NCBI GenBank assembly: GCA_020845955.1
Contig: JADLEU010000398.1
Span: 1 to 62,892, forward strand
Source: Anaerolineales bacterium
Lineage (GTDB): Bacteria > Chloroflexota > Anaerolineae > Anaerolineales > UBA6663
Direction: 5' to 3'
DNA length: 62,892 nt
Shown piece after piece: positions 52,306-62,892 of the stretch. Both the position numbers and the translations under genes were made by a program. Below the pieces are notes generated by a model. That model was not told where the DNA came from and did not search any database. It saw nothing but the letters and a program-made list of their open reading frames with translations. Position 1 is the first letter of the stretch, and every line of letters starts with the position of its first letter.

Positions 52306-53400
52306 ATGGCCAAGAAACGCGGAAACAACGAAGGTTCGGTCTACAAGCGGAGCGACGGCTTATGGGCTGCTCAAATCACTCTGCCGGACGGAAAGAGGAA
52401 GTACAAGTACGCCAAGACCCAGAAGGAGGCCAACGAGTGGCTGCTCTCGCAGCGCCAATTGGTGCGGTCAAACACCTGGGTCTCGGACGACACGGTGACT
52501 GTGGGCGCCTTCCTGGAGCATTACCTGACGACCGTTTTGCCGTCGACCCTTAGGCGCAGCACCCTCGTCTCGTATACCCGCATTATCCGGATGCACCTCA
52601 AAGCCGCCCTGGGGGAAGTCCGCCTCTCGCGCCTCACGCCCCAGCTGGTCCAAAACTTCTACGCGAACAAGCTCGCCGAGGGTCAGTCTCCCCGCTCAGT
52701 CCAGTACATGCACGCGGTCTTTCACAAGGCCCTTGATAAGGCTGTGCGGATGGATCTGGTGCCTAGAAATGTGTCAGATTTCGTGGATGTGCCCTCAGTG
52801 AAACGCCATACCCCCGTGGTCTGGTCGCTGGAACAGGTGAAATCCTTTGTGGAAGCAGCCAAGACTCATCGGCATTATGCCCTCTTTGTCCTGGCCCTTT
52901 CCTGTGGCCTTCGGCAAGGGGAGCTTCTGGGCCTGCAGGTGGAAGATATAGAGTTCGCGACCGGCTATCTGAACGTTCGAAGGGCCTTGGAAGTGGTCTC
53001 CGGGCAGGGGCTGCAACTCACCCAGCCCAAGACACAAAAGTCCCGCCGACGAATAAGAATCCCCGGACCGGCGCTGGAGGTTCTGAAATCTCACGTTGCG
53101 GCTCTCGGACGACAAGACGGGTTTCTCTTTGTCACCACTGTCGGAACGCCAATACGGGCTCGAGACCTGGTGATTCAGTTCAAGGGCCTTCTGGAGAAGG
53201 CGGGACTGCCGGACATCCGGTTCCATGATCTGCGACACTTGTGCGCTACGTTGCATTTGATGGCCGGAACGAATCCGGCCGTGGTTGCCCAGATATTGGG
53301 CCATAGTACAATTACCCTTACCCTGCAAACCTATTCACACGTCTTGGCGCCCGTGGAAGAGGAAGCTGCGGACCGTATGGGCAAGCTCTTGACGGCGTGA
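52306..53400 (+). CDS. int: Tyrosine recombinase/integrase
   Basis: The product is 364 aa. It has an AP2-like N-terminus (KKRGNNEGSVYKRSDGLW), a core-binding domain (TVGAFLEHYLTTVLPSTLR) and the catalytic set Arg in CGLRQGELL, HDLRH, LGHS and the Tyr nucleophile in QTYSHVL. GGAGG precedes the ATG. It points at the tRNA-Leu gene 105 bp away, the likely attachment site. A decayed relative lies at 62286-62641. Confidence 0.94.
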   Translation: MAKKRGNNEGSVYKRSDGLWAAQITLPDGKRKYKYAKTQKEANEWLLSQRQLVRSNTWVSDDTVTVGAFLEHYLTTVLPSTLRRSTLVSYTRIIRMHLKAALGEVRLSRLTPQLVQNFYANKLAEGQSPRSVQYMHAVFHKALDKAVRMDLVPRNVSDFVDVPSVKRHTPVVWSLEQVKSFVEAAKTHRHYALFVLALSCGLRQGELLGLQVEDIEFATGYLNVRRALEVVSGQGLQLTQPKTQKSRRRIRIPGPALEVLKSHVAALGRQDGFLFVTTVGTPIRARDLVIQFKGLLEKAGLPDIRFHDLRHLCATLHLMAGTNPAVVAQILGHSTITLTLQTYSHVLAPVEEEAADRMGKLLTA

Positions 53401-53504
53401 AGCAACCTCTACAGCATTGGCCTTTGCGGCTACTGTGTGACGGGCCTGGATACTGCGAAGGGAGGATGGACACTAGCAGGCTTGATTTGCAGTGGTCAGT
53501 GAAC

Positions 53505-53587
53505 GGGCCGGTGGCGGAATGGCAGACGCCGTGGACTTAAAATCCACTGAGGGCAACCTCGTGAGAGTTCGACTCTCTCCCGGCCCA
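53505..53587 (+). tRNA. tRNA-Leu(UAA), copy 1
   Basis: It folds as an 83-nt class II tRNA: acceptor GGGCCGG/CCGGCCC, anticodon loop CTTAAAA within GTGGA/TCCAC, a long variable arm and a TTCGACT T loop; CCA is not fully encoded. Its first 27 bases equal those of copy 2 at 62767. It lies at the right end of the integrase segment, so it is probably part of an attachment site. Confidence 0.93.
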
Positions 53588-54083
53588 CCTTGTGAAGTGG
53601 TCTCCCGCAATGGATCTAGTGACGGTGGCTGTAATGCTCAATCGTACAGAAGTCTCAATGAATATGGTTTAGGATCGAAGAGCACTGTTTTCGATGAAGG
53701 GCATATACGTAGCGATGGACTCCGCAGAGTGAAACAAAATGGGAAGTCTGGTTGAAGGGGAACTATGTCCTATTCGAAAGGCGCTGAGGTCGCCCCCAAT
53801 GCTCTCCATAAGGCAGGAGACTCCCTCGGCACTTAGCCGCAAAATGCCCTGATAAACAAGGCAAAGGCGCCACTCCCATCGGAGTGGCGCTTTGTTTGTA
53901 CGCCCAACAACCAAAGTCCCAGAAAGCCCTTACTCGTAAGCTAATACTCGTGATAGATGCTTGGATCATGGCAGACCATATTTACAGCAGCCCCCTGGCG
54001 CCATGGACCATTGTTGCACCATATACATCGCGGTGATAAGCCAAGCCTAAGTCACTCGATCGACCACGAATATCTCCAGCAAC
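53588..54083. other. Left flank of the second element, no gene seen
   Basis: This stretch has lower G+C than the flanks and only short open frames without support. It contains the terminator at 53867-53899 and leads up to the mer control region. Confidence 0.5.
53867..53899 (+). terminator. Rho-independent terminator
   Basis: A perfect 10-bp stem (53867-53876 with 53881-53890) with loop CATC is followed by TTTGTTTGT. It could end transcription from the tRNA or shield the mer promoter. Confidence 0.8.
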
Positions 54084-54152: not shown

Positions 54153-54788
54153 ATGGACGATCCTGCTGCGTTAGCGTCATCGCTCAAATTGGCCCTGTGC
54201 ATTTGCCCGTCCGGCTGTGAAGCCCGAACATGCCTGGACGACTTGCCCCTGTACCATGCGCTTATCCGGCTCTTGGCAGCTGGACGGCCGCTGTCGGACG
54301 ACGAGATCGCGCAAGTCACGGGCCTTTCCCCGGAACTCTTGAGCGACCGTCTGGCCAAAATGGATCTCGACTACGATGCGGTCGGCCGAGTCATTGGCGC
54401 CGGCCTCACCTTGGGCCCAACGCCACATCGCTTTGCAATCAGTGGCCGCCAGCTGTTCACCTGGTGTGCTCTCGACGCACTCATGTATCCCGCGCTGCTG
54501 TCGGAGACGGTTCACGTCGAGTCGCCCTGTCGGACCACTGGCCAGCCGGTGCGCGTCACCGTCACGCCCGATGGCGTGACCACAGTTGATCCGCCCGAGG
54601 CGGTAGTCTCACTCGTGCTGCCAGAGCCGAGCCAGCCACCGCGGCAGGCCTTTTGCGGCGAAGTCCACTTTTTCGCCTCGGCGCAGGCCGCAGAAAGTTG
54701 GCTGGCCACGCGTCCGCAGGCGCAGGTGGTACCGGTGGAAACCGCCTATACGCTAGGAAAGCTGCTAATTGCCAGACGTGGCGCCTGA
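54153..54788 (+). CDS. merB: Alkylmercury lyase MerB (first copy)
   Basis: The product is 211 aa. Cys105, Asp108 and Cys168 match the catalytic Cys96, Asp99 and Cys159 of known MerB with a constant offset of nine, and Cys126 matches the structural Cys117. It cleaves the carbon-mercury bond of organomercurials, passing Hg(II) to MerA. It is first in the operon and its ATG sits at the predicted transcription start. Confidence 0.93.
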
Positions 54789-54789
54789 T

Positions 54790-56277
54790 ATGACAAGAGT
54801 GACCCCCCTCGAAGCGCGACGACAAGCTGACCTTTCCACAGGTCATGTCGAAAAATACGACCTTGTGATCCTGGGCTCAGGCTCGACGGCCTTTGCGGCA
54901 GCTCTGCGAGCGGCCGAATTGGGCAAGACTGCTGTCATGACCGAAAACCGCACTCTCGGGGGTACCTGCGTCAACCGCGGCTGCCTGCCGAGCAAGAACC
55001 TGATTGAAGCCGCCCGCATCGTCTGGCAAGCGCAGCATCCCCGCTACCCCGGTCTGCGCCCCGCCAAAATTGACTTCGATTTCCAGACCCTTATCCAGCA
55101 GAAAGACGACGTTGTTCACGATTACCGGGACCGCAAGTATCGTTCCATCGTGGATGAGGCGGACCGGATCAAGGTCCTGGCCGGCCACGCCCGTATGGCT
55201 GGCCCGCATGCGGTCGAAGTTGATGGCCGTGAAATCATCGGTGAACAGATTCTCGTTGCGACCGGCAGCCGGCCACAAGTTCCCTCCATTGAAGGGATTG
55301 ACGAGATTCCTTATCTCACGTCTGATTTGCTCACATCCGATGAACCCTCAGAACTGTTTGAGCTTCCCCGGTCCCTCGTGATTGTGGGCGGCGGCTATGT
55401 GGCCCTGGAGCTGGGCCAAATGTTCCACCGCTTCGGCACCCAGGTCACCATCCTGGAGCGCAGCCGCCGGGTTCTCAAGGCCTATGAACCGGAGGTGTCG
55501 ATCGCTATCGCCCAGGCGCTCGTGGACGAGGGTATTCAGCTTGTGACCAGCGCGTCGGTGCAGCGCGTCTACCAGGAACCGGACGGGACGATCGTCGCCG
55601 TTGCGCGGACGCGTGCCGGGGAGCAGGCGATTCGGGCTCAACGGCTGCTGGTGGCCACGGGCCGCACCCCCAATACGGATGGCTTGGGCCTGGAGAATGT
55701 GGGCGTAGGCCTGGACGATCGGGGGTTCGTGAAAGTCAACGACTACTTGCAGACAGACGTTCCGCATATCTGGGCGGCCGGCGATGTCGTCGGTCGCCAC
55801 ACCGGGAGTCAAATGGCCACCCCGGTGGGTGCCCATGATGGCGGGATCGCCTCACACAATGCTTTCAGCGGCGAACGCCGTCAGGTCGATCACCACGTCA
55901 TTCCGCGCGCCATCTTCACCGATCCCCAGGTGGCGGTGGTCGGCCTGACCGACGCCGAGGCCAATGCCCTGGGCCATCGCTGCTGGTGCAACACTGTTCC
56001 AGTCGAGCTTGTTCCCCGCGCTGGCGCCGTTCACGATCCGCGCGGCATCGCCAAAATGGTCATTGACGATGATACCCGCCAGATGCTGGGGGTGTCGCTG
56101 GTCATGCGTGACGCGGCCGAAGTCATCCACGAAGCGGCGATGGGGTTGCGCCTGGGCGCAACGATTTTTGACTTCATCGATATGCTGCACGTTTACCCCA
56201 CGATGGCGGAGGCGCTCAAGATCGTGGCGATCTCACGCTTCAAAGATCCGAAGAAGCTATCGTGCTGCGCGGAGTGA
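54790..56277 (+). CDS. merA: Mercuric reductase MerA
   Basis: The product is 495 aa from 54790; an ATG at 54769 would add seven residues and overlap merB. It has the FAD motif [10 protein letters not shown], the redox pair [12 protein letters not shown], the NAD(P)H motif [13 protein letters not shown] and the C-terminal vicinal cysteines of MerA in LSCCAE. The N-terminal metal-binding NmerA domain is absent. It reduces Hg(II) to Hg(0) with NADPH. Confidence 0.96.
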
Positions 56278-56309
56278 GAACATCAGCCATACCCACAGGA
56301 GAGACTGTC

Positions 56310-56996
56310 ATGAACATCGCGCGTGCGACCAACACGACAAAGAAGCTGATTGTGGAAGGCGGCCTGCTCGACTATGGGCCGGCGCAGTCACGGCTGATCA
56401 TCCGGGTCATGCGAACGCTGGCTCTCGGCCGCCCGGTCAGCCAGGCGCAGGTCGCCCAGATCGCTTCGGCCCTGAACATCGAATGGGATGAGGCCACTCA
56501 GGTGCTAGGGAAGGTGACCGAACGCGATGCCGGCGGAAATGTGACCGGCATTCTTGGGCTGTCTTTGAACGAGACGCCGCATCGGCTGATCATCGGCAGC
56601 CAGCGGTTTTCAGCCTGGTGCGCAGTGGACACGCTCTTCCTCCCGGCCATGCTCAACCAAGCCGTGGTCATCGAGTCGCAGCCCCCGGGGAGCCAGGCCC
56701 GGGTCCGGCTGGTGGTCAGTCACGAGCGGATCGAAGCGGTGGACCCCGCCACTGCCGTAGTATCCATGGTCGTGATGGAGGCTGAGGCCAAAGATTTGCA
56801 TACGGTCGAGGCTATTTGGAGCAACTTCTGCCATCACATCCACTTCTTTCGCTCGCGCGAGGAAGCCGAGCAGTGGGCCGCCGGCCGGCGGGATATTGAA
56901 ATCCTTACCCTGGACGAAGGCTTCGAAAGTGGCCGGCAGGTGGCAGCGCACTTGCTGCAGCATGCTCAAGCAGCTGACCAACCGGTCGTGGCGTGA
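56310..56996 (+). CDS. merB: Alkylmercury lyase MerB (second copy, divergent)
   Basis: The product is 228 aa with AGGAGAG before the ATG at 56310. The catalytic residues Cys104, Asp107 (WCAVDTLF) and Cys174 (NFCHHIHFF) are kept, but the structural Cys117 position is Pro125 (IESQPP). It differs widely from the first copy, so the two are not a recent duplication and may act on different organometals. Confidence 0.9.
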   Translation: MNIARATNTTKKLIVEGGLLDYGPAQSRLIIRVMRTLALGRPVSQAQVAQIASALNIEWDEATQVLGKVTERDAGGNVTGILGLSLNETPHRLIIGSQRFSAWCAVDTLFLPAMLNQAVVIESQPPGSQARVRLVVSHERIEAVDPATAVVSMVVMEAEAKDLHTVEAIWSNFCHHIHFFRSREEAEQWAAGRRDIEILTLDEGFESGRQVAAHLLQHAQAADQPVVA

Positions 56997-57009: not shown

Positions 57010-57459
57010 ATGCGCATCAAAGAACTAGCCAACCAAACCGGCGTAGCCGCCGAGACCATTCGCTACTACGAAGCGGTGGGTCTCTTACCCGCACCGAAAC
57101 GCGCAGCCAACAACTACCGCGAGTATGGCCCAGCGGATGTTGAGCGCCTGCGCTTCATTGCTAGCGCCCGCAGCCTGGGGCTGAGTCCGGCCGATGTGGG
57201 TGAGATCCTGGCGGCCCGGGACCAGGGGATCGCCCCGTGCGAGCGCGTCCTAACGGCCTTGGACCAGAGTCTCGTTGATCTGGATCGCCGCCTGGCGGAC
57301 ATGCTGGCCTTGCGGGATACCTTGCTCAGTCTCCGCCGGGAAGGCGCCACGCTGCCATTGGACGATGTACAAGGCGAGCAGTGCGTCTGTTATCTGATCA
57401 AGGCTTACGGCGAAACAGGAAAAGTGCTGATCCAACGCCAGGAGGCTGAGCATGACTGA
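57010..57459 (+). CDS. merR: MerR family metal-responsive regulator
   Basis: The product is 149 aa with the N-terminal HTH (MRIKELANQTGVAAETIRYY) and dimerisation helix. The metal ligands are Cys77 (APCERV) and Cys125/Cys127 as CxC, unlike the Cx8C of classical Hg-MerR. It could therefore read Hg(II), Cd/Pb or an organometal. It is encoded within the operon it likely controls; it overlaps the next gene by 8 bp. Confidence 0.9.
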   Translation: MRIKELANQTGVAAETIRYYEAVGLLPAPKRAANNYREYGPADVERLRFIASARSLGLSPADVGEILAARDQGIAPCERVLTALDQSLVDLDRRLADMLALRDTLLSLRREGATLPLDDVQGEQCVCYLIKAYGETGKVLIQRQEAEHD

Positions 57460-57976
57460 CATGTGCTGCTGTGTTCCTGAGGCGGGGAGCGCCCTGTGTG
57501 AGCAACCCGCTCCGGAGCTGATGCGCCGCAGTATTTCACCGGGCACGTGCCCGTGCTGCGGTGAGCGGGGCAAGCCTGTACAGGGCCAAACGGTCAAGAG
57601 CCTGCTGGCGATCAGCCTGCGGACCGTCCGAGACGTGCAGTATCACTTCTGCCGGCGCCGCGACTGCCCGGTAGTTTACTTCTCGGACGACGGCCAACAA
57701 CAGTTTGTGACCAGCGATATCCGCGAGTTGGTCTATCAAAAGGAGCCTGACACCGATCAGGTGCAGGTGTGCTACTGTTTTGGTTATCGGGCCGGCGCGC
57801 TACGGGCGGCCTCAGCCGCCGAGCGTGACTCCATTATTGCCGACATCAACGCCGGCATCCAGGCCAGCCAGTGCGCCTGCGACCTTCGCAACCCGCAAGG
57901 TTCGTGCTGCCTGGGCAATGTACGCGCCTTTGGGCGCCAGCGAACAGCGGCGCTTGCCGTCAACTCCGAGGCTTGA
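57452..57976 (+). CDS. CopZ-like Fe-S/zinc metallochaperone of the mer operon
   Basis: The product is 174 aa and carries about 14 cysteines: CCC at the start, CPCC near residue 33, FCRRRDCP, and the C-terminal set CYCFGYR, CACDL and CCLG. This resembles the N-terminal zinc and [2Fe-2S] part of the Archaeoglobus CopZ and the iron-sulfur cluster-binding metallochaperones found in mer operons. There is no C-terminal HMA domain. It may deliver or accept Hg or electrons. Confidence 0.82.
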   Translation: MTDMCCCVPEAGSALCEQPAPELMRRSISPGTCPCCGERGKPVQGQTVKSLLAISLRTVRDVQYHFCRRRDCPVVYFSDDGQQQFVTSDIRELVYQKEPDTDQVQVCYCFGYRAGALRAASAAERDSIIADINAGIQASQCACDLRNPQGSCCLGNVRAFGRQRTAALAVNSEA

Positions 57977-58005
57977 TAAGCAACTCGCGGGCTGAGAAGT
58001 CGAAC

Positions 58006-58608
58006 ATGGGATGGGGACGCTCGCCATTGGATTGGCTCAAGCGCAATCGGCTGTGGCTGGTGTTGCTCGGTCTGGCGGCGTTGCTGGGATACACCCTATG
58101 GTCGGACGCCCAGCATGTCCCTGCCACCGAAGATCAACTTAGCAATATCGCGGATCTTGACGAACTGCGCATGCAGTTCAACCAGGATGCCGGACACCCA
58201 CGCCTGATACTGCTGCTCTCGCCGACTTGAGCGGTGTGCCAAGCTGGCGCCCGGTGGGTGCAGCGCGATTTGCTCGAATCGAACATAGACGCCGATGTGC
58301 GCGTCTATGCCGTCTGGTTCGCCATGTTGGCAGGCGACGCACGCGATGAGTGGGACCAGGCGCTCTTGCCAGATGCCCGTGTCCGCCACTTCTGGGACGA
58401 GGAACGGCTGGTAGGCCGCTGGTTTGCGCGCAAGGTCGAAGGCTGGGACGGCATTGTCTGGGACGCTTATTACCTTTATGACGCCGAGGCCCGCTGGGAA
58501 GGCACCCTCCCGGTTGCGGTCAGTTCCGGCGCCACGGTGATCGACCGGCGGGAGACGCTGTTGGCTGGCGTTCAGGCGTTGATGGCGCTTCCCGAGCCAG
58601 CCCCGTAG
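58006..58608 (+). CDS. Candidate thioredoxin-like selenoprotein with UxxC active site
   Basis: The reading frame spans 200 residues if TGA at 58228-58230 is read as selenocysteine (Sec75). The N-terminus has one membrane helix (residues 14-33). The active site reads LLLSPT-Sec-AVC, so Sec75 and Cys78 form a UxxC in place of the thioredoxin CxxC, preceded by the beta strand PRLILLLSP. The frame continues intact for 126 codons with protein-like sequence (HFWDEERLVGRWFARKV). A hairpin at 58243-58264 has the place and loop of a bacterial SECIS. As an ordinary annotation it would be split into 58006-58230 and 58234-58608. It is probably a membrane-bound thiol/selenol redox partner of mercury or organomercury detoxification. 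Confidence 0.75.
58243..58264 (+). promoter_or_regulatory. SECIS-like hairpin after the in-frame TGA
   Basis: GCTG (58243-58246) pairs with CAGC (58261-58264), G58247 bulges out, and CGCCC (58248-58252) pairs with GGGTG (58256-58260) including one G-U. The loop is GGT at 58253-58255, 23-25 bases after the TGA. A short loop starting with G at that distance fits the bacterial SECIS pattern. Confidence 0.6.
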
Positions 58609-58750: not shown

Positions 58751-60100
58751 GTGCGCATGCTTTGGCACTATGACGGGCTTGGCCTGCTCAAGCCCGTGCA
58801 GGTGGACCCTGCGACCGGTTACCGGTATTACAGCCTTGAGCAATTGGAGCACCTGCAACGCCTCCGCACCTTGACCGAATGGGGCCTATCTCAGCGGGAG
58901 ATCACCAGCTTGCTGGCCCTAGCCGATCCTGAGCAGGCACTGGCTGGACTGCTGCAGCGTCGCCAACGCCTGCTTCGGCGGCGGATCGCCACTGATCAGG
59001 CCCGCCTGATCCAGGTCGAGGCCCAGCTACACAGCCTGGGGAGGGAGCCAACGATGTCCACCGGCCCTGACTCACAACGGATCGCCGGCCTGCTGCTGGC
59101 GCAATACCAGCGGGCCGACGCCCGGGTTGAGCCATTCCCCGACGGCCCCAAGGATGGCTTATGGCGTCATCGGGTGCAATTCGCCGGCGGCGACGTTGGC
59201 CTCGTCTACAGCGGCCGGGCCGACCACCCGCAGACGGAGTGGCTACACGGGCATGGAGGCCGGCCGACCGTGGACTTTCTCCTGGGCCAGGCCAGCTTGC
59301 TGCGACACCTGGCTGAGCATGGCTACCCGGCGCCGCGCGTGGTCGCCAACACCGCCGGCCAGGATCTCAGCCACGCTTCGGGCTGGACCGTCCTGGTGAC
59401 ACAGGCCGTGAGCGGTGCGGCGGTCGAAGGCGCGCCAGAGAGCTTCCGAGGCCTTGGCGCCGCCCTGGGGTGGCTTCATACCTTGCCACTGGAGTCTGAG
59501 CGAGGTATGCTTCTGCCCCCCTCGTGGCTGTACGCCGATCATGCCCTGGCCGCAGCACGGCACTTTCTCGAGGCTGCCAGGGCACAGCCTCCCGCGGATG
59601 ATTGGCCGTGGCTGGCTGCGTTTGAAGCTACTCTTTTGCAGGTTCAATCCGCAACGCGTCTTCCTCGCTGTGTCGTTCACGGCGGCGCCTGGCTGGCCAA
59701 TGCCGTCTGGACCGCCGGCGCAGAATTTGCCTTCGGGGAGTGGCACAGCGGCGGCGCTGGTGTGGCCATCCTGGACCTGGGCCGGCTGCTGCTGGGCGGC
59801 CATCGGGAGAGGAATAGTTCTCTGTCGCGCTCGATCACACCGGATGATCGGCGGGTGCAGGCTGTCTTGGAAGGCTATTGCCAATACCGTATCCCCACGT
59901 CCCAGGAAGTCGAGCTCCTGCCAGCGGCGATTCGCTCTAGCGTTGCCTATGGCGCAGCCGAGCACCTTGCCCACGGGCTTGAAACCGGCTGGACGCCCCG
60001 AATTGAGAATAAACTGGCTCGGCGGTGGCAGTGGTACCAGGCGGCGGGCGAAATCGCGACCCTGAGCCAGTCGGGCTTACAGGCTCTCGGGGTTGTCTAG
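58751..60100 (+). CDS. MerR-type HTH fused to a phosphotransferase-like domain, N-terminus cut by an amber codon
   Basis: From the GTG at 58679 the frame reads LRIGRFARLGRT, then TAG at 58748-58750, then VRMLWHYDGLGLLKP, so the DNA-binding helix pair of a MerR regulator is split by one stop. The open part from 58751 codes 449 aa: most of the HTH, a coiled linker to about residue 100 and a C-terminal domain like aminoglycoside/choline phosphotransferases. The kinase motif is VVHGGAWLAN, with Gly instead of the catalytic Asp. It probably senses a ligand and controls the exporter gene 3 bp downstream. It may be a recent nonsense mutant. Confidence 0.7.
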   Translation: MRMLWHYDGLGLLKPVQVDPATGYRYYSLEQLEHLQRLRTLTEWGLSQREITSLLALADPEQALAGLLQRRQRLLRRRIATDQARLIQVEAQLHSLGREPTMSTGPDSQRIAGLLLAQYQRADARVEPFPDGPKDGLWRHRVQFAGGDVGLVYSGRADHPQTEWLHGHGGRPTVDFLLGQASLLRHLAEHGYPAPRVVANTAGQDLSHASGWTVLVTQAVSGAAVEGAPESFRGLGAALGWLHTLPLESERGMLLPPSWLYADHALAAARHFLEAARAQPPADDWPWLAAFEATLLQVQSATRLPRCVVHGGAWLANAVWTAGAEFAFGEWHSGGAGVAILDLGRLLLGGHRERNSSLSRSITPDDRRVQAVLEGYCQYRIPTSQEVELLPAAIRSSVAYGAAEHLAHGLETGWTPRIENKLARRWQWYQAAGEIATLSQSGLQALGVV

Positions 60101-60103
60101 GCG

Positions 60104-61924
60104 ATGCCTGGGCTGACGCTTTCCCGGCTCAAACTGTCCGAGCGCTGGCAGACACTCCGCGCGACGTTGCGGCTGCTCTATGCCAGCCAGCCGCGCGCCT
60201 TCGTGGTCAGTGCCATCGCCTCCCTGGCCGAGCCGCTGTTCTTCCCCGCCTTTCTGCTGGTCCTTCAGCTCACGCTCCAGCAGGCGACGGCGTCGCCCAC
60301 CGGCACACTCCAGGCCACGCCCGCTGTGGGCTGGCTGGGGCTGGCCCTAGTGGCCCTGATCGTCACCCAGCGTCTGGGCATCATCGTCCGCGATGGCTCT
60401 TCGACCCTCCTGCGTCAGGAAGCCTGGGTCGTCATCAGCAAGCGCATCCTGGCCAAGCTGCCGGCGGTGCCGTATCCGCTGTTTGAAAACAATGCTTTCC
60501 AGGCCCGCTATGGCCTGGTCATCCGCGAAGCCGCTCATCGCTCCATCACCCTGGTCGACTCGCTCCTGTCGACAGCACCGATCTTCTTCGGGATGCTGGG
60601 CCTGGCTCTGACCGTGCTAGCGATGGCACCCCTGCTGGTGCTGGCGATGGTTGTCATCGCCATCCCGGCAGCCCTGATCGAGCAGCGCTTCAGCGGTGCG
60701 ATGTACGACCTGCAGGAACACTCCGCGCCCGACCAACTGCGCATGGAAGCCCTGACCAACATGCAGGTGGATGCTACCTGGCAGCGCGACCTGCGCGTCT
60801 ACCGCAGTGACATCCTGAGCCGCGAACATGCCACGCTGGCCGAGAAATACCTGAGCAATCTCAAGCGGCTAACCTTCCAGTTTGTGCGCCTGCGCTCGGC
60901 TGCCGCCACGGTCGAGGCACTCGGCATCGCGCTGGCGCTCACCGCCGCCTACGTGCTGATCGGCCGCGGCCAGCTCAGCCTGCCAAACCTGGCCGTGCTG
61001 ATCCCCGGCCTGGCACTGCTCTTCGGCATGATCCAGGCGCTGATCTACCATGTGCGCTCGCTCATCGAGTCGCTCAATTACGCGGCCACCTTGTTTGAGT
61101 TTCTGAACCGGGAGAGTTTTGCCGACCTGGGTGGGGAGGCGCGTGCGCCTGTCATCTCTGCCCTGCCGCGCCAAGCGCTGCAGGCGATTCATCTGTGCGA
61201 CGTGGGATACACCTACCCGGAGCAGCAGAAGACCGCGCTCATTGATGTCTCCTGCGAGCTGCGGCCCGGCCTAACCGCAGTGGTGGGCACCAATGGCGCC
61301 GGCAAGAGCACCCTGGTGAAGCTGCTCACTGGGCTCATCCCGCCCACCACTGGCACCCTGCAAGCCGAACTACCTGGAGGCGAGCGAGTGCCGCTGGCGA
61401 CGTGCGTCAAGGCCGTGCTGTTTCAAGACCCGTCACACTTCCCGTTCAGCATCCGCCAGAACGTCACCATGGCGGATAAGCCCACGCCCGGCGAAGAGAC
61501 CCGCATTCAGGAGGCACTCGAGCTGGCCGGCCTGTGGTACGCAGTGGCCGCGCTGCCCGGCGGGATCGAAACGGTGGTGGGCTCTGGCTTTGGCGGCGTG
61601 ACCGACCTGTCGGGCGGGCAATGGCAGCGGCTGGCGCTGGCCCGTCTGCTTTACCACGACTCGCCGCTCATCATCCTGGACGAGCCGACGGCCAGCCTCG
61701 ACCCGGTGGGCGAGCGCCAGATCTTCGACCTGTTGGCCACCTTTGCCAAGGAGAAGATTATTGTCTTCGCCACCCACCGTTACGACACCATTCGCAAGGC
61801 GGACATGATCATGGTGCTGCTCGATGGTCGCTTGGCCGAGATGGGCACACACGAGCAGCTGGCCGCCAGCGCCCGCGAGTTCTGGTCCTTGTTCCTGGCA
61901 CAAGGTTCGCACGTTGACACCTAA
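60104..61924 (+). CDS. ABC exporter half-transporter (fused membrane and ATPase domains)
   Basis: The product is 606 aa. Residues 1-330 hold about six helices; the ATPase domain has Walker A GTNGAGKST (about 394-402), the signature LSGGQWQRLALARLL (about 502), Walker B LIILDEPTASLD and ATHRYDT. It should act as a homodimer exporting a drug, peptide or lipid. It is paired with the MerR-type regulator just upstream. Confidence 0.92.
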   Translation: MPGLTLSRLKLSERWQTLRATLRLLYASQPRAFVVSAIASLAEPLFFPAFLLVLQLTLQQATASPTGTLQATPAVGWLGLALVALIVTQRLGIIVRDGSSTLLRQEAWVVISKRILAKLPAVPYPLFENNAFQARYGLVIREAAHRSITLVDSLLSTAPIFFGMLGLALTVLAMAPLLVLAMVVIAIPAALIEQRFSGAMYDLQEHSAPDQLRMEALTNMQVDATWQRDLRVYRSDILSREHATLAEKYLSNLKRLTFQFVRLRSAAATVEALGIALALTAAYVLIGRGQLSLPNLAVLIPGLALLFGMIQALIYHVRSLIESLNYAATLFEFLNRESFADLGGEARAPVISALPRQALQAIHLCDVGYTYPEQQKTALIDVSCELRPGLTAVVGTNGAGKSTLVKLLTGLIPPTTGTLQAELPGGERVPLATCVKAVLFQDPSHFPFSIRQNVTMADKPTPGEETRIQEALELAGLWYAVAALPGGIETVVGSGFGGVTDLSGGQWQRLALARLLYHDSPLIILDEPTASLDPVGERQIFDLLATFAKEKIIVFATHRYDTIRKADMIMVLLDGRLAEMGTHEQLAASAREFWSLFLAQGSHVDT

Positions 61925-62285: not shown

Positions 62286-62641
62286 TCCAAATCGCCGCGT
62301 CCGGGGTCCACATCCCTGGGCCGGCCCTGGAGGTCTTGAAAAATAACGTGGCAGTTCAAAGTCAGGTCAAAGGATTCTTGTTCCAATCTGAGGAGGATAC
62401 GCCTATTCTTCCCCGGAACGTGGTGCGGGGTTTCAAAGGGTTGATTGGGCAGTTGGATTGCCAGATATCCGATTCCATGACCTACGACACTTGTGCGCTA
62501 CACTCCATTTGATGGCCGGAACTGATCCAGCGGTGGTTGCCCAAACATCGGGCCATAGTATTATCATCCGCACCATACAACCCATTTCCACGCCCCGGTC
62601 TTCGTGGAAACGGCGGACCGATGGGCATGCTCTTGGCGTGA
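62286..62641 (+). pseudogene. Decayed tyrosine integrase, C-terminal part
   Basis: One frame codes VHIPGPALEVLKNNVAV and onward; another resumes with LPDIRFHDLRHLCATLHLMAG. Both parallel the integrase at 52306 (IPGPALEVLKS, DIRFHDLRHLCATLHL). The N-terminal two thirds are gone, there are frameshifts, and the catalytic Tyr region is altered. The stop and the following bases GAAGCAACC match the region after the intact gene. Confidence 0.85.
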
Positions 62642-62766
62642 AGCAACCCCGACAGCATTGGACCTTACAGCTACTACAGCAACGCTACAGCAACGGGAGT
62701 GGAAAGGGTGCGGAGAGCGGAGAGGGTGGACACAAGATAGGGCTTGTTTTATAGTGGATCGTGAAT

Positions 62767-62849
62767 GGGCCGGTGGCGGAATGGCAGACGCCGGGGACTT
62801 AAAATCCCCTGCTCTTCGGAGCGTGAGGGTTCGACTCCCTCCCGGCCCA
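62767..62849 (+). tRNA. tRNA-Leu(UAA), copy 2
   Basis: It is an 83-nt class II tRNA with acceptor GGGCCGG/CCGGCCC, anticodon loop CTTAAAA in GGGGA/TCCCC, variable arm CTCTTCGGAG and T loop TTCGACT. The anticodon stem, variable arm and T stem differ from copy 1, each with compensating bases, so both copies look functional. It marks the right end of the second element. Confidence 0.93.
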
Positions 62850-62892
62850 CTTCCCGCGGTGAGGGGACATGGAGGGCAGTCCACGACCAAGG

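Follow-up and report, generated by a model that had tools for sequence, protein, structure and literature searches.

In the window, which is the whole 62,892-nucleotide stretch of Anaerolineales DNA analysed here, six genes lie on one strand in the order merB-merA-merB-merR-copZ-trxU and are closely spaced or overlapping. The first five belong to mercury and metal handling, and the sixth, trxU, almost certainly encodes a selenoprotein with a thioredoxin fold:

54153-54788, forward strand: merB1, organomercurial lyase (NF009710, 227 bits, over the cut-off)
54769-56277, forward strand: merA, mercuric reductase core without an NmerA domain and with a C-terminal CC (TIGR02053, 513 bits, over the cut-off)
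56262-56996, forward strand: merB2, organomercurial lyase with Cys/Asp/Cys active-site residues visible (PF03243, E 1e-28)
57010-57459, forward strand: MerR-family metal-responsive regulator (Pfam and NCBIfam matches)
57452-57976, forward strand: CopZ-type N-terminal [2Fe-2S] metallochaperone (NF047645, over the cut-off)
58006-58608, forward strand: trxU, 200-residue membrane-anchored thioredoxin-fold selenoprotein with Sec75 (TAG stop at 58606-58608)

The two merB genes on either side of merA differ from each other and both keep their catalytic residues. No ccdA gene is present in the window, and MerT was not detected in the host genome by a search that was likewise silent in the control genomes. 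The mer-selenoprotein cluster is flanked by an integrase 3' end with tRNA-Leu(TAA) in two diverged copies (80-87%), located at 53203-53589 and 62455-62850, 9.25 kb apart, and resembles a tRNA-Leu genomic island whose integrase lies at 52306-53400. Downstream of trxU, the gene at 58751-60100 reads as a MerR-type DNA-binding domain apparently fused to an aminoglycoside-phosphotransferase-like domain; an ABC exporter gene comes next (60104-61924).

The coding part of trxU (58006-58605) comprises 200 codons, and its sole in-frame break is a TGA at codon 75 within a thioredoxin-like active site. The predicted product reads MGWGRSPLDWLKRNRLWLVLLGLAALLGYTLWSDAQHVPATEDQLSNIADLDELRMQFNQDAGHPRLILLLSPT-U-AVCQAGARWVQ... 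with two active-site positions:

58228-58230, forward strand: Sec codon TGA (U75) in the active site SPT-U-AVC, aligned with TGA in at least 60 relatives and with Cys in 12
58237-58239, forward strand: TGC codon of the resolving cysteine C78 of the UxxC motif, Cys throughout the family with Sec in two loci

A sequence-only reading of this DNA had described a single frame from 58006 to 58608 with a lone TGA at 58228 and 126 codons behind it; the frame and its lone TGA hold, while the count is corrected to 125 sense codons plus the TAG stop. It had also expected standard annotation to split the gene, and mechanical open reading frame calling does yield two pieces, 57871-58230 and 58234-58608. 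All five upstream genes (merB1, merA, merB2, merR and copZ) end in TGA. The codon is therefore an ordinary stop in this operon and no alternative code is needed; an altered genetic code at the trxU TGA is ruled out by these normal TGA stops. The same usage is what a decayed thioredoxin-like gene interrupted by a recent premature stop would show, a reading that we consider vanishingly improbable given the conservation, selection and hairpin results described below.

The trxU family is found in three phyla and retains TGA at the active site. Our sample spans 73 loci of Chloroflexota, Actinomycetota (Rubrobacter) and Acidobacteriota and comprises 76 family segments. Judged by a simple motif test, the SPT-x position is TGA in 60 segments and Cys in 12, the rest being fragments besides L145, which reads GPTUGVC and adds one more TGA-bearing member. 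TGA-bearing homologues share about 30-50% identity, and homologues with Cys or Sec aligned at position 75, the search proposed from sequence alone, thus exist in number. An identical TGA in at least 60 relatives from three phyla already refutes a pseudogene. Downstream of the TGA, dN/dS is 0.06-0.32 in close pairs with unsaturated synonymous sites, well below 1, which indicates that the part behind the TGA is translated and under purifying selection, again contrary to a premature stop. At least nine interchanges between Sec and Cys are found on a tree of 69 sequences. Two loci, L109 (near 2062) and L119 (near 7483, reverse-complement strand), contain two in-frame TGAs in the motif SPTUPKU and are predicted to encode double-Sec UxxU proteins. 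A separate acidobacterial clade (L121-L123, L125-L129, L131-L136, L142 and others) carries the motif SPT-U/C-GHC or PHC and shows no mer genes in its vicinity; its Cys members are recent. Whole-genome searches of 400 genomes from the window's phylum identified nine carriers besides the host, with further carriers in 9 of 346 genomes of the Rubrobacter phylum and 47 of 347 Acidobacteriota genomes. An eleventh match to P0001, in G062, is a thioredoxin-like protein unrelated to the family and was not counted. A plasmid search returned no match.

A bacterial SECIS-type hairpin follows the Sec codon:

58243-58264, forward strand: bacterial SECIS-type hairpin with core stem 58247-58252/58256-58261 and GGU loop 58253-58255

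It pairs through a 6 bp GCGCCC/GGGTGC core and 3 bp of GCT/AGC across one bulged G. Its energy is -8.5 kcal/mol when only the 15-nt core is folded, and the lower stem brings it to -12.3 to -14.0 kcal/mol. The 9-bp hairpin noticed in the sequence-only reading, whose GGT loop spans +23 to +25 behind the TGA, is thus present. The bacterial SECIS model calls for a loop of 3-9 nt with G in the first two positions, a stem of 4-16 bp, a spacing of 16-37 nt and a minimum free energy of at most -7.5 kcal/mol (PMC13188914), and the window agrees with these published constraints (6 bp core, GGU loop, 22 nt spacing, -8.5 kcal/mol core). Taken alone, the window hairpin is not unusual (p = 0.26 against synonymous-codon shuffles; z = -0.76 against dinucleotide shuffles), which is the one respect besides codon usage in which a premature stop would fit. 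Across the family, a simple fixed-position hairpin score is 15.7 for the 60 Sec members; synonymous-codon shuffles reach 8.8 (p = 1e-11) and the 11 Cys members no more than 4.2 (Sec versus Cys, p = 4e-7), with p-values that overstate independence because family members are related. This contrast between Sec and Cys members speaks against a premature stop and is visible only by the fixed-position statistic, whole-region folding energy showing none (mean z -0.42 versus -0.51). Two hairpin registers are used: the loop lies at +23 to +25 in the window's clade and at +18 to +20 in most other members, where several pair types at the same positions represent covariation.

The host genome (6.06 Mb, 431 contigs, 100% complete, 4.4% contaminated) encodes the machinery for selenocysteine decoding, as had been asked of it: SelA, SelB, tRNA-Sec (72.8 bits) and SelD were all found. 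SelD (L146, host contig C162:12747-13688) is itself a selenoprotein candidate, with an in-frame TGA in its active-site region CAGUASKMG; decoding of UGA as Sec is consequently very probable at other sites in this host as well. In G337, two trxU-family genes, SelA and tRNA-Sec are found on a single closed contig, so that binning is no longer a concern for the family overall. SelA is present in 330 of 400 genomes of the phylum and so its presence is uninformative as an association test. Searches for tRNA-Sec gave background matches to tRNA-Ser/Leu in all controls and were trusted only above about 57 bits; 12 of 15 carriers exceed this score, and tRNA-Sec was not clearly found in three draft genomes (G233, G402 and G405). 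Overall, we regard it as nearly certain that trxU at 58006-58605 is a genuine selenoprotein gene in which the UGA at codon 75 is read as Sec with the aid of the downstream SECIS hairpin.

The trxU family is absent from the libraries that we searched. Neither the joined window protein nor the relatives as a set match Pfam or NCBIfam, apart from one weak protein-disulfide-isomerase match for the set (E 0.006), and a profile search of the PDB gave no match. The Sao genes named in the sequence-only reading are real: a table of prokaryotic selenoproteins in a 2026 review includes SaoL and SaoT, along with a mercuric transport protein, CopZ types and HgcA/HgcB (PMC13188914). Like trxU, the Sao system (SaoL, a MerB-like lyase, NF040728; SaoT, NF040730) consists of selenoproteins tied to organometal chemistry, and SaoT is thioredoxin-like with a UxxC motif. 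In contrast, the SaoT model NF040730 has no match to the window protein at E <= 1 nor to relatives at E <= 0.1 (10 relatives) or 0.01 (9 relatives), and no Sao NCBIfam model matches the trxU family at the thresholds used. The window MerB proteins are ordinary MerB and not SaoL (about 31 bits against a SaoL cut-off of 140), and the ABC-transport genes of Sao systems were not seen with trxU. The selenoproteins MerT_CopZ_Se (NF045683) and Csac_0668-type CopZ (NF045877) likewise belong to mercury or heavy-metal transport; the CopZ-like neighbour in the window is a Cys version of this kind, while trxU belongs to a different family. No entry in the review table could be identified with the trxU family (PMC13188914), a literature motif search found no paper on it, and neither of two extensive mer gene surveys (PMC3466566, PMC8261052) mentions selenium. 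We conclude that trxU represents a selenoprotein family missing from the libraries searched; its novelty relative to Sao is judged from the NCBIfam models and from the review, and a passing mention elsewhere is possible.

The trxU family is associated with mercury genes in independent operon arrangements. Using profiles seeded from the window mer genes and from MerT and CcdA of relatives, we scanned the loci for MerA, MerB, MerT, CopZ and CcdA markers and found 31 marker genes within 4 kb of a trxU-family gene as opposed to 0 among 319 open reading frames farther out (p = 5e-7). At least one marker lies within 4 kb at 23 of 73 loci, and the mercury context seen in the window recurs in other phyla. 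Gene orders include merR-(short trxU)-merA-(membrane protein)-(lipoprotein trxU) in G337, merB-arsR-ccdA-trxU-(thioredoxin-like) in Rubrobacteraceae L036 and copZ-merR-merT-trxU in Acidobacteriota L041. The merT gene adjoins trxU in L041, L101, L102 and L145, and ccdA is found within 1 kb in seven loci, directly upstream of trxU in Chloroflexota L024 and L025. MerA lacks the NmerA domain in the window, G337, L031 and L106. Two fusions are directly observed. In L042, a single frame places a Sec domain N-terminal to a complete MerA (TIGR02053, 525 bits, cut-off 454), with merB nearby, and in L110 (near 6744, reverse-complement strand) a Cys member lies behind an N-terminal periplasmic HMA (MerP-like) domain and is adjoined by a CopZ-type gene. 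Flavin reductases near the L099 and L137 members are MerA-like without a C-terminal CC and were not counted as MerA.

None of the five markers is found nearby at 50 of 73 loci, many of them on short contigs, or in a well-supported acidobacterial clade of 17, which indicates that mercury may not be the only or the ancestral substrate. In line with this, TrxU could be a genuine selenoprotein with a general role in peroxide or metal-stress redox chemistry that was recruited into metal operons only sometimes: most acidobacterial members lie outside mer loci, and trxU is found beside copper ATPase or RND efflux genes at several loci. We consider this unlikely since mer genes are what independent operon arrangements in three phyla have in common and the MerA fusion ties that branch to mercury.

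AlphaFold modelling of nine family sequences (pLDDT 86) yields one N-terminal transmembrane helix followed by a thioredoxin domain with the UxxC motif at the start of helix alpha2, as in TlpA/ResA-like folds. The closest solved structures are DsbE, DsbF, DipZ and ResA (VIA Z about 12-13, Foldseek E 9e-5). Model and fold searches thus agree with the membrane-anchored thioredoxin-like protein read from the sequence. The L042 fusion model, built from a single sequence (pLDDT 35), was excluded from the fold evidence. The structural elements of the window protein are:

58024-58110, forward strand: N-terminal transmembrane helix, residues 7-35 (AlphaFold secondary structure)
58459-58464, forward strand: Trp152-Asp153, just before strand beta4 by model secondary structure (Trp in 65 of 68 sequences, Asp in 64 of 68)

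Basic residues preceding the helix suggest that the TrxU domain faces out of the cell. Other family members possess lipoprotein or signal-like N-termini; the members in L042, L013 (G337) and L010 (G032) have no such sequence and are probably cytosolic. Invariant residues are Arg66, Pro73, Sec/Cys75, Cys78 (counting as Cys the Sec found in two loci) and Trp104. Thioredoxins normally carry a cis-Pro before strand beta4. In TrxU, the model secondary structure puts Trp152-Asp153 at this place, the comparison with a ResA profile being weak and ending before the cis-Pro region. In the copper chaperone Sco1, a metal-binding His lies close to the cis-Pro place, which makes Asp153 a candidate ligand.

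Two further functions have to be weighed against this structural background. Should Asp153 occupy the cis-Pro position, the nearly invariant Sec, Cys and Asp would lie close together, and Sec75, Cys78 and Asp153 could act like the MerB triad (Cys96/Cys159/Asp99, cited in PMC8261052) as a second type of organomercurial-cleaving centre, structurally unrelated to MerB, for C-Hg cleavage or demethylation outside the cytoplasm. We judge this very unlikely: MerB is already nearby in the window, L042 and L036, and other loci have only MerA or MerT. The nearest folds, and a thioredoxin fold that itself suggests redox work, are also compatible with a genuine selenoprotein that is a dedicated TlpA/ResA/DipZ-type thiol-disulfide reductase, receiving electrons from CcdA and keeping cysteines of MerT, MerB or the envelope reduced under mercury stress while carrying no mercury itself. 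The seven ccdA neighbours and the large subfamily without mer context fit such an enzyme, and TrxU resembles TlpA/ResA/DsbE/DipZ oxidoreductases in fold, in anchoring outside the cytoplasm and, for some of their genes, in a position beside ccdA. It differs from them by the lack of a sequence-level match (Pfam, NCBIfam, PDB), by Sec as first active-site residue, by its place in mer operons and by the conserved Trp-Asp where cis-Pro is expected. Because the cis-Pro typical of such enzymes is seemingly replaced by Asp, and because the MerA and HMA fusions and the operons with merT and without ccdA suit a mercury carrier better, a purely reducing function seems to us less likely than mercury carriage, although it is the main rival.

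We favor a function of TrxU as a Sec/Cys domain for mercury capture and handover, which would probably do the job of MerP or NmerA and be kept reduced by CcdA where that protein is present. Classically, Hg(II) is picked up outside the cell by MerP and imported by MerT (PMC3466566); NmerA, according to the title of Ledwidge 2005 (cited in PMC8261052), acquires Hg(II) from proteins and passes it to the MerA core. TrxU occupies the corresponding places: outside the cell beside merT, as a separate protein beside MerA proteins that lack NmerA, and in fusions, either N-terminal to MerA or with an HMA domain. Mercury is bound more strongly by selenolate than by thiolate. From these placements we infer a selenium-based mercury carrier, in which the paired Sec and Cys, perhaps assisted by the conserved Asp153, would capture Hg(II) or organomercury and hand it to the next mer component, that is, to MerT at the membrane or to MerA or MerB in the cytosol. 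Where ccdA is adjacent, a CcdA/DsbD-type membrane protein could supply the electrons that keep the pair reduced; carrier and CcdA-driven reductase roles are not mutually exclusive. The sequence-only reading had the selenol protein act with MerB, MerA and the Fe-S chaperone on organomercurials, and such direct action by TrxU may occur. The likeness to MerP and NmerA extends to the proposed mercury binding, its passing to MerT or MerA and the shared operon or fusion positions (L042, L110). Fold and motif are unrelated (SPTUxxC in TrxU as opposed to GMTCxxC), TrxU uses selenium, and the window protein has no HMA match and a thioredoxin fold instead, so that it is not an HMA family member. The TrxU system can be described as a selenium variant of mer mercury handling.

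In animals, selenium protects against mercury toxicity via selenol-mercury chemistry. The trxU family, a new selenoprotein family that standard gene callers split in two and that is missing from the curated libraries searched, links selenium directly to bacterial mercury detoxification. Soil bacteria appear to embed selenol-mercury chemistry in mer operons, even fused to mercuric reductase, and the carrier model predicts that Sec in place of Cys would confer higher mercury affinity or faster release.
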